Source: a virus. From it: a stretch of 46,710 bases of DNA. Positions 2,963 through 15,944 of the stretch are shown here, piece by piece. A program made the translations under genes and the position numbers. The stretch lies in IMG/VR virus record IMGVR_UViG_3300049053_000036, positions 1 through 46,710 of that record. One strand, written 5' to 3'. A model generated the notes under the pieces. The model did no database searches, was not told the DNA's origin, and saw only the letters and a program-made list of their open reading frames with translations. The number at the start of each line of letters is the position of its first letter. Positions within the stretch are counted from its first letter, which is position 1.

Positions 2963-3025
2963 GTCGTGTTCTCCTTGGGGTGGGGGCCCCGCCGAATTCG
3001 CGTCGGCGGGGCCGTCTGCGGGTGG
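2963..3025. repeat. intercistronic spacer, type 2, copy 1
   Basis: It holds an 11-bp perfect inverted repeat (GGCCCCGCCGA at 2985-2995, TCGGCGGGGCC at 3003-3013), then a block at 2964-2984 that is identical over 21 bases to 4179-4199 and contains the AAGGAG ribosome site on the minus strand. With 4180-4231 it forms a two-copy hairpin-plus-RBS cassette. Confidence 0.7.
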
Positions 3026-13070: not shown

Positions 13071-13484
13071 ATGACCGTCATGGCAGCGCGTGATCCGAAA
13101 GCGACGGGTGGCCGGACACAGTTCCGCAACCTTGTCGCGCAGCGGAAAGAGGAGCTCGGTCTCGGGTACGAGAAGCTGGCGGCACGCTGCATCGATCCTG
13201 AGAGTGGCGAGCAGACCGTCAAGTCCAGTTGGCTGCACCGTCTTGCCACCGGCAAGCCGGTTGAGGCGCCCGACTATGAGTTGTTGCGCGGCCTGGCGGC
13301 CGGCCTCGATGTGTCGGTGGCTGCGCTGCAGGATGCGGCGTCAGCTGAGTTTTTCGGCGCGGAGCGGGTGGCGTTCGCTGATTCAGCTGAGGGGCAGGCG
13401 TTCCTGCAGGACGCGGATCGGTTGACGTCTGCTCAGCGTGAGGCGGTGCGTGCCTTGATCCGGTCGTTCACTGAAGACCGCTAA
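13071..13484 (+). CDS. XRE-family repressor-like protein (immunity candidate)
   Basis: A 137-residue protein with an N-terminal HTH: TQFRNLVAQRKEELGLGYEKLAARCIDPESGEQTVKSSWLHRLATGKPVEAPDYELLRGLAAGLDVSVAALQDA. The C-terminal part (FADSAEGQAFLQDADRLTSAQREAVRALIRSF) is a short helical domain. Divergence from the early operon and the operator array between them make it the best candidate for the lysogenic repressor. ATG 13071 has a GGAG site eight bases upstream; ATG 13080 is an alternative. Confidence 0.78.
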   Translation: MTVMAARDPKATGGRTQFRNLVAQRKEELGLGYEKLAARCIDPESGEQTVKSSWLHRLATGKPVEAPDYELLRGLAAGLDVSVAALQDAASAEFFGAERVAFADSAEGQAFLQDADRLTSAQREAVRALIRSFTEDR

Positions 13485-13687: not shown

Positions 13688-13981
13688 ATGCCGGAACACT
13701 GCAAGAGCCGCACTGCCCGCAAGACAGTCCGGGCGCAGATCGTCTTCAGCGACGAACTGCCGCCCGGCTGCCCGTCCTACCAGCTTCCTGACGGGGCCAT
13801 GATGATGGAGGTCGAACTCGACGACCTCACGCTCATCATCATTCGGCCCGGCAGTATGGACCGCCGCCTGTACGACGAGCTGAACCGATACTGCAACCGC
13901 GTCACCTCTCTGGGGATCTGGTCTCGGGACCCGTCCCGCGCGCCCGCGCTTCAGGCCGTGAAGGCGCTGGCGGGGCTGTAA
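13688..13981 (+). CDS. conserved-looking small protein before attP/int
   Basis: A 97-residue protein from ATG 13688, chosen because GGGGGG lies just upstream and earlier in-frame ATGs lack a site. It reads MPEHCKSRTARKTVRAQIVFSDELPPGCPSYQLPDGAMMMEVELDDLTLIIIRPG..., a small beta-rich fold followed by helices. The family is unknown. Position between repressor and integrase makes a recombination directionality factor one possibility, without sequence support. Confidence 0.65.
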   Translation: MPEHCKSRTARKTVRAQIVFSDELPPGCPSYQLPDGAMMMEVELDDLTLIIIRPGSMDRRLYDELNRYCNRVTSLGIWSRDPSRAPALQAVKALAGL

Positions 13982-13991
13982 CCTGCGGTTT

Positions 13992-14047
13992 TAGAGGGGG
14001 GATTCATAAGCGTTCGGCCTGCCGAATGCCTGCGAAACCCCCCTCTA
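13992..14047. other. candidate attP: 56-bp nested dyad upstream of int
   Basis: Outer arms TAGAGGGGGG (13992-14001) and CCCCCCTCTA (14038-14047) and inner arms TTCGGC (14013-14018) and GCCGAA (14021-14026) share one centre, leaving CT (14019-14020) as a possible crossover dinucleotide. Length, symmetry and position fit attP sites of large serine integrases, as in phiC31. Neither strand has a T-tract after the arms, so an intrinsic terminator is less likely. Confidence 0.62.
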
Positions 14048-14051
14048 GCGT
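14046..14051 (+). promoter_or_regulatory. leaderless -10 of the integrase gene, overlapping attP arm
   Basis: TAGCGT lies six bases before the ATG at 14058, so transcription would begin at or next to the start codon. The element overlaps the right attP arm, which puts any -35 inside the attP candidate. Confidence 0.45.
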
Positions 14052-14057
14052 GGCAGC

Positions 14058-15476
14058 ATGCGGGGCATGCGCCACGAACCTGCAGACCCGCAACTCGCCG
14101 CCATCTACTGCCGTATGAGTGAAGACCGCGAAGGTGGCGGCCTTGGTGTCGACCGGCAACGCGAGGACTGCGAACAGCTCGCCGCCCAGCTTGGCCTCAC
14201 CGTTGTCCGCGTCTACGCCGACAACGACCTGAGCGCCTACAGCGGCAAGACCCGCCCCGACTACCAGCACATGCTCGAAGCGCTCCGCGCAGGCGCCTAC
14301 GGCACCGTCCTTGCCTGGCACACTGACCGGCTCCACCGCTCGCCCACCGAGCTGGAGGAGTACATCGACGTGTGCGAGCCCCGCGGAGTCCAGACCCGCA
14401 CCGTCAAAGCTGGCACGCTCGACCTGACCACCGCGACCGGCCGGATGATTGCCCGGCAGCTTGGCGTGCAGGCCCGCTACGAAGTGGAGCGGATGATCGA
14501 GCGGCAGCGCCGTGCCCGCGATCAGAAAGTGCAGCGCGGTGAATGGTCCGGCGGGCCGCGCCCCTACGGCTGGGAAGCCGACGGTGTCACCCCCGTCGCA
14601 TCGGAGATCGCCGTCATCCGTGACGTCGCCGAAGCAATCCTCGCCGGGGCCTCCGTGAGGTCCATCGCTGCCGACCTCAACGCACGTGGGCTACGCACTA
14701 GCACTGGCGCCGAATGGGACGGCGGCAACCTGGTCCGCATGCTGAAGCGGTCCCGCAACGCGGGCATCCTTCAGCACCGCGGCGAGGAAGCCGGCCCGGC
14801 CGCATGGAAGGCGGCCCTCGATGAGCCGACCTGGCGGAGTCTGCGGGCTGTCCTCGACGATCCGTCGCGGATCCCGACCGCGTCGAACGTCCGCAAGCAC
14901 CTGGGGAGCGGCCTGTATCTGTGCGGGGTCTGCGGCGAAGGCCTCACGTCGTTCTCGAAGGGCGAGGGTAAGCCCGCCAAGTACAAGTGCCGGAAGAACA
15001 ACTGCGTCCTGCGGGATCTTGTGCTGCTGGACAAGTGGGTGAAGGCGTACCTGCTGCGGCGTCTGAAGCGCCCTGATGCAGCCGAGTTCTTCACCGCCCG
15101 GCAGGAGGAGTCCACGGTCGATGTGCGGGCCGCACAGGAGGATCTGCGGGCCGCGAGGGACAACCTCGACCAGCTGGCCGCGGCGTTCGGTGCGGGGGAG
15201 ATCGACATGCAGGAGTGGCGGGTGGCTCGCGAGTCCGCGCGGGTTAGGAAGGCGAAGGCTGAGGCGGTGCTGGCGTCTGCGGTGACGGTGAATCCGCTTG
15301 CGGGGCTGTTGGCCGCTGAGGATGTTGAGGCGGCTTGGGGGGCGATGGATTTGTCGAAGCAGCGTGCTGCGGTTGATTTTGCGATGGTCGTGCGGGTGTT
15401 CCCGGCGAAGGTTGGGCGGCAGCCCGGGGGGGCGTACTGGGATCCGAATGCGGTGCGGATTGAGTGGAAGAAGTGA
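14058..15476 (+). CDS. int: large serine integrase
   Basis: A 472-residue large serine recombinase. The resolvase-type catalytic domain shows AIYCRMSED (nucleophile S21), YADNDLSAYSGKTRPDYQHML and the arginine segment WHTDRLHRSPTELEEYI. A recombinase domain follows (QRGEWSGGPRPYGWE...IVRDV-like...SIAADLNARGLRTSTGAEWDGGNLVRMLKRSRNAGI), then a zinc ribbon (CGVCGEGL...YKCRKNNC) and a coiled coil (AAQEDLRAARDNLDQLAAAF). It would catalyse attP x attB integration, and excision with a directionality factor. The length is typical for the family. ATG 14058 fits a leaderless start; ATG 14067 is an alternative. Confidence 0.95.
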   Translation: MRGMRHEPADPQLAAIYCRMSEDREGGGLGVDRQREDCEQLAAQLGLTVVRVYADNDLSAYSGKTRPDYQHMLEALRAGAYGTVLAWHTDRLHRSPTELEEYIDVCEPRGVQTRTVKAGTLDLTTATGRMIARQLGVQARYEVERMIERQRRARDQKVQRGEWSGGPRPYGWEADGVTPVASEIAVIRDVAEAILAGASVRSIAADLNARGLRTSTGAEWDGGNLVRMLKRSRNAGILQHRGEEAGPAAWKAALDEPTWRSLRAVLDDPSRIPTASNVRKHLGSGLYLCGVCGEGLTSFSKGEGKPAKYKCRKNNCVLRDLVLLDKWVKAYLLRRLKRPDAAEFFTARQEESTVDVRAAQEDLRAARDNLDQLAAAFGAGEIDMQEWRVARESARVRKAKAEAVLASAVTVNPLAGLLAAEDVEAAWGAMDLSKQRAAVDFAMVVRVFPAKVGRQPGGAYWDPNAVRIEWKK

Positions 15477-15510
15477 CAGTGCCCCAGCCTGGTGTGGGCT
15501 GGGGCACTGT
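15476..15510 (+). terminator. terminator hairpin after int
   Basis: A 14-bp perfect stem (ACAGTGCCCCAGCC at 15476-15489, GGCTGGGGCACTGT at 15497-15510) with a 7-base loop starts at the last base of the int stop codon. No T-run follows, as is common in actinobacterial terminators. Confidence 0.75.
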
Positions 15511-15511
15511 G

Positions 15512-15549
15512 GCCCCCCTCCGGTTGCCTGGGAAGCTTCGGAGGGGGGC
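15512..15549. other. second dyad downstream of int
   Basis: GCCCCCCTCCG (15512-15522) and CGGAGGGGGGC (15539-15549) form an 11-bp inverted repeat around 16 bases. It may be a back-up or bidirectional terminator. Its arms resemble those of the upstream attP candidate, so it remains an alternative attachment site. Confidence 0.5.
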
Positions 15550-15710: not shown

Positions 15711-15944
15711 GTGCCGTCCGTTCCTCCGCCCGACTGGGTCCGCGCCCGCCGCCGGGCTATCGGTGATCACATCCGTGTCGCGCGTCTGAATGGGAACCTC
15801 ACGCAGGAGAAGCTGGCCGAGTTGGCTGGGATGGATCGACAGGCGATCAACCGGATTGAGCAGGGCCACTCCAGTGCGAAGCTCGACAACTTGATCCGGA
15901 TTGCTGCGGCCCTCGAGGTGCCGCTCGTCGACCTTGTGCGGTGA
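15711..15944 (+). CDS. small XRE-family regulator
   Basis: A 77-residue protein starting at a GTG with GGAGAG nine bases upstream. Residues 11-75 form a complete Cro/CI HTH: RRRAIGDHIRVARLNGNLTQEKLAELAGMDRQAINRIEQGHSSAKLDNLIRIAAALEVPLVDLVR. There is no effector domain. Single-domain XRE proteins of this type are common in actinobacterial mobile elements. It follows int on the same strand, past two hairpins. Confidence 0.85.
   Translation: MPSVPPPDWVRARRRAIGDHIRVARLNGNLTQEKLAELAGMDRQAINRIEQGHSSAKLDNLIRIAAALEVPLVDLVR

Follow-up and report, generated by a model that had tools for sequence, protein, structure and literature searches.

Comparison of related phages and prophages identifies the attP site of a large serine integrase and points to an int promoter that would stay with the gene

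The window analyzed here is a 46,710-nucleotide stretch of viral DNA (IMG/VR record IMGVR_UViG_3300049053_000036) that carries tail, head, portal, and terminase genes. Comparison with related loci identifies a 56-bp dyad at positions 13992 to 14047 as the attP site of the adjoining large serine integrase gene, int. The same comparison suggests that int probably has its own promoter beside attP, on the half that stays with int, and that the attB of this Streptomyces-type phage likely lies in a nucleobase-permease gene. We regard the model as a whole, in which 13992-14047 is attP, a permease gene supplies attB, and a leaderless int promoter is kept on integration, as very likely to be correct.

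The int product, read as 472 amino acids, contains Pfam domains Resolvase (PF00239, residues 14 to 163) and Recombinase (PF07508, residues 183 to 264) and matches a PHROG integrase over residues 12 to 471, which gives it the N-terminal resolvase catalytic domain, the recombinase domain, and the long C-terminal part of a large serine integrase. The preliminary description had placed its start at ATG 14058, a codon that is missing in 30 of 50 related loci; practically every one of these loci has an ATG at the equivalent of 14067, and we assign int to 14067-15476 on the plus strand (469 amino acids) from this conserved start. Two GC-rich hairpins lie 3′ of the gene (15476-15549, plus strand; inverted repeats, with a fold of −62.5 kcal/mol) and probably mark the end of transcription; they do not serve as an att site. 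Gene X (13688-13981, plus strand, 97 amino acids) lies across attP from int and stops 10 bp before the dyad. Most close relatives keep it in this place, and two integrated prophages (L067 and L069) carry it at their distal end; searches against Pfam and PHROG gave no match, and neither assigns it a function.

The dyad consists of two 27-nt arms, TAGAGGGGGGATTCATAAGCGTTCGGC (13992-14018) and GCCGAATGCCTGCGAAACCCCCCTCTA (14021-14047), with CT (14019-14020) between them. The arms pair at 22 of 27 positions (81%), the highest score among all even-centered 27-nt dyads in the window, where the runner-up reached 18/27. The best dyad in each of 40 shuffled windows (first-order Markov) scored between 17 and 21. 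The preliminary description had proposed a dyad centered on this CT, and it is present exactly there. An attP site of a serine integrase is expected to be an imperfect inverted repeat of about 45 to 56 bp around a central dinucleotide and to adjoin int, and the segment at 13992-14047 has each of these features.

Loci with related integrases were collected from viral sequences (49 loci) and bacterial genomes (9 loci), with a distant viral outlier, L050 (25% identical), excluded. A scan of 393 Streptomyces genomes returned just two further integrases, both distant, and a DNA-similarity search of phages gave only short matches, within integrase genes. In the viral loci with upstream DNA, a dyad of the same kind precedes int. 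Conservation was computed over 24 sequence clusters as a function of d, the distance from the central dinucleotide. It is mirror symmetric at d = 3-6, 15-17, 20, 22-23, and 26-27 and fades beyond d = 27; left-right agreement exceeds the column expectation at d = 18-24 (at d = 22, for example, 0.85 versus 0.48 expected). Symmetric, covarying arms that end at d = 27 fit two integrase half-sites; in the attP half-site of the LI integrase, a zinc-domain motif is located at positions 16 to 24 (PMC3783163). The central dinucleotide is CT in 22 of the 24 clusters.

Several loci carry variants of the site. In L026, the central dinucleotide 5′ of int is AG, versus CT in nearly all relatives, and the site may be defective or divergent. 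The left attP arm is tandemly duplicated in L008 (TTAGAGGGGGGTCCCGTCAACC, two copies), just upstream of position 3001. In L020 to L022, about 60 to 95 bases 5′ of int, the left arm itself is an intrinsic-terminator-like hairpin (ACACCC GTAA GGGTGT CTTTTT), so that a single stretch of DNA may serve as both attP and terminator.

Integrated relatives place the crossover within the dyad. Four Streptomyces genomes contain loci (L051 to L054) with integrases 80, 76, 75, and 65% identical to that of the window; a prophage of this exact phage was not found among the genomes searched. Right of the dyad center these loci are phage-like, and left of it they contain the 5′ half of a permease gene. In G002 and G004, the 3′ half was found on the contig that carries the 5′ half, at a distance of approximately 52 to 53 kb; in G001 it is on a different contig. 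At each of these sites it is preceded by a left attP arm. Both junctions could be read in these three genomes, and only the int-proximal one in G003. In these relatives, the junctions fall at the dyad center, and each joins one attP half to one attB half. The preliminary description had named 15512-15549 as another place where junctions might lie; this is excluded for these relatives, whose prophage ends are just 5′ of int and about 52 kb away, and the hairpin at 15512-15549, with no relative's junction in it, was rejected as an attP candidate.

The Streptomyces ossamyceticus prophage narrows down the crossover point. Its int-proximal junction reads CTCGGG/CTGCCGAACGCC and its distal junction GCGTTGGGC/CTGCCGACGACG (slashes mark the joins). 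The two parents have different bases immediately before CT, and each of these bases remains attached to the left half that it came from; the next difference is seven bases rightward. These differences limit the crossover to bases matching 14019-14025, in agreement with exchange at the central CT. Joining the phage halves from the two ends of this prophage restores an attP identical to that of a free-phage contig, L006. The central dinucleotide agrees between attP and attB in all three genomes: G001 and G002 have CT at each junction, and G004 has TT at each, as expected if the attP and attB central dinucleotides must match. When the attL and attR sites of relatives are compared with 13992-14047, a check put forward in the preliminary description, both prophage junctions place the attP center at CT 14019-14020, which we take as the inferred 2-bp crossover point.

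The gene to the left of the junction in L051 to L054 encodes ...NIPDFTRFG...GQ(S/T)LGLP and belongs, by Pfam, to Transp_cyt_pur, the NCS1 cytosine/purine permease family. Uninterrupted permease genes, that is, empty attB sites, occur in other genomes, and a permease attB of approximately 50 bp would be centered on CTCGGCCTGCCCACC. In a quick FastTree tree, the window integrase is nested in a clade bracketed by L051, L052, L053, and L054, all permease integrators, from which we infer that a permease gene is likely the target of this phage too. The phiC31 target, a pirin gene, is a different one. Literature searches in a partial library gave nothing direct on a serine integrase with a nucleobase-permease attB. 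A sister group (L056 to L059) is integrated in another gene, whose product is of YifB/ComM type and contains the Pfam domain ChlI.

To the right of the dyad, conservation turns one-sided. The motif TGNCANNNT is found at exactly +32 from the att center in 49 of 50 loci; in the remaining one, L032, the anchor had been misplaced, and counting from the true center puts the motif at +32 there too. The 50 loci were anchored on the att core alone, independently of the five letters of TGNCANNNT, which were defined from these same loci. In the window, the motif corresponds to an extended −10-like element, TGGCAGCAT (14051-14059, plus strand), outside the attP arm, in which the conserved −10-like box CAGCAT (14054-14059) is preceded by TGG. 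The final T of TGNCANNNT lies 5 to 7 nt before the ATG in 49 loci (ATG 14067 in the window); its position is thus conserved and falls where the −10 element of a leaderless promoter is expected, 5 to 8 nt before the start codon. In Streptomyces coelicolor, leaderless mRNAs make up about 21% of primary transcripts, and −10 boxes read TANNNT (PMC4895711). The hexamer here is CANNNT, hence only promoter-like, and its initial C, set against the TANNNT boxes of Streptomyces, is a point against a promoter. It is not accompanied by a recognizable −35: a scan for −35 and consensus promoter sequences gave none above threshold, and the −35 place at 17-nt spacing, located by position arithmetic, holds TGCGAA (14031-14036, plus strand), a weak match. 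Among 14 further serine integrase genes from actinobacteria, a set chosen by similarity and not at random, with several members mutually related, 10 have a [TC]ANNNT hexamer 5 to 8 nt before the start. The comparison supports the suggestion in the preliminary description that a leaderless int transcript starts beside attP.

Transcription of int could also come from farther upstream, through gene X and attP in the phage and from the permease promoter in the lysogen, in which case the +32 motif would not be a promoter but would bind another protein or serve as an outer contact of integrase. In favor of this reading, no terminator was called in the window after gene X, which stops shortly before attP, the prophages have the permease 5′ half oriented toward int, and TGNCA is itself palindromic, with a partly similar CCWGC on the left side; the mirror symmetry of TGNCANNNT as a part of attP is only partial. 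Against this reading, the sister clade has the same motif in the same place, and in many of its loci terminator-like hairpins abut the left arm, between the upstream genes and attP, so that a promoter on the right is probably required for int in that clade. The constant 5 to 7 nt to the ATG is also the spacing of a leaderless promoter, and other integrase families have −10-like boxes at the same place. We consider transcription of int from upstream alone to be unlikely.

Less likely still is the version in the preliminary description, in which attP itself carries the int promoter, with TAGCGT as the only −10-like box, and integration removes the −35 and so switches int. TAGCGT does stand at 14046-14051, as described there, and this place, 6 nt before ATG 14058, has TANNNT in 37 of the 50 loci; in phage Samy, a predicted int promoter is reportedly lost on integration (PMC12924846). 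However, CAGCAT is present as well and is conserved, whereas the second-position A of TAGCGT is lost in 12 of 50 relatives, including the closely related, integrated L052 (TGGCGT), and the ATG that TAGCGT would serve is the one so often missing. The T and A of TAGCGT mirror the left arm, and the symmetry of attP, which ends here, accounts for them. Nor does the geometry favor a switch by loss of the −35: the conserved element occupies +32 to +40, any −35 at normal spacing from it would stand near +12 to +17, still on the side of the crossover that stays with int, and even for TAGCGT a spacing of 17 to 18 nt puts the −35 near 14022-14028, at the crossover limit or to the right of it. All eight integrated copies (L051 to L054 and L056 to L059) keep the −10-like element, and no int promoter element was found beyond the crossover, where integration would remove it, although a weak upstream promoter may exist. 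In phiC31, attP is reported to lie in the region of the int promoter, and int expression reportedly continues in the integrated state (PMC11784100). We regard this version as very unlikely. A role for the dyad as the terminator of gene X, and not as attP, would fit its strong RNA fold (−43.6 kcal/mol, z = −5.9) directly 3′ of the gene X stop codon. This reading is hardly credible: the dyad has no U-tract and no terminator call, the sister clade has a separate hairpin beside its dyad, and prophage junctions at the dyad center rule out a terminator-only role, though an additional role as RNA may exist.

In the model that we favor, with attP at 13992-14047 and a separate int promoter to its right, two integrase dimers would bring attP and the host attB together, and strand exchange would take place at CT 14019-14020. 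Integration would leave the permease 5′ half and the right attP arm (P′) beside int, and the left arm (P) and the permease 3′ half at the other end of the prophage. int would be transcribed from the extended −10 element TGGCAGCAT, just outside P′, from a start at or beside ATG 14067, and the transcript would probably be leaderless. Lying on the int side of the crossover, TGGCAGCAT would be kept by int in both free phage and lysogen; the upstream context alone would change, from gene X to a truncated host gene pointing at int. In the permease integrators, int lies downstream of the truncated permease gene in the same orientation, and read-through into int from the host permease promoter is possible, as an addition rather than a removal; in a window-type sequence, the truncated permease reading frame would end at TAG 14046-14048. 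A more speculative proposal, which we think rather unlikely, is that the fixed 32-bp spacing from crossover to −10 element is a regulatory device, whereby integrase bound at P′ occludes the int promoter and so represses its own gene, and int in the lysogen is also read from the captured permease promoter. Self-repression and captured-promoter reading would, if true, tie the potential for excision to nucleobase uptake.

Other features surround this module. A left-flank element, CCTGC (13982-13986), represents CCWGC at −37 to −33, which is conserved over the 24 clusters (C 99%, C 92%, T 67% or A 21%, G 81%, C 92%); it is found at a fixed spacing in both integrase clades and only partly mirrors the right-flank motif. 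The integrase family changed its host target in L056 to L059 yet kept the +32 motif. Two helix-turn-helix, repressor-like genes (13071-13484 and 15711-15944; PHROG transcription regulation) flank the attP-int module.

These results supply a reliable attP, a core, and a likely host target for a clade of serine integrases only 33% identical to the R4 integrase; serine integrases of this sort are orthogonal integration tools in Streptomyces. They also correct the integrase start codon and yield a prediction on int expression before and after integration.

Streptomyces phage R4 offers a close parallel, since its serine integrase gene starts about 12 bp past the end of the attP dyad: the R4 record (D38173) has a 50-bp repeat region at 231-280, the attP core at 254-265, and int from 292. 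Just downstream of the R4 attP there is likewise a −10-like box, TACACT, 6 nt before the GTG. The R4 att core is different, and so is the integrase, at 33% identity. Of six distant integrases put through a simple dyad scan, R4 alone showed a clear attP-like dyad (17/25). The attP of phage phiJoe is at most 50 bp long, forms an imperfect inverted repeat about a central dinucleotide, and lies 18 bp 5′ of int (PMC5311408); unlike the site described here, its center is GG, and the small gene across attP is divergent and a proven directionality factor, whereas gene X is co-oriented with int. The position of the phiJoe gene makes gene X a candidate, and only a candidate, for the same role. The phiC31 system (pSET152) is similar in that attP is reported within the int promoter region and int expression persists after integration (PMC11784100). 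Phage Samy also has a serine integrase with attP 5′ of int, and integration alters the upstream context of int; unlike here, the predicted native promoter lies beyond the att repeat and is lost, and the target is a radical SAM gene (PMC12924846). An attP site next to int is a layout already known from R4, phiC31, and phiJoe, and by this comparison the arrangement in the window is ordinary in kind.
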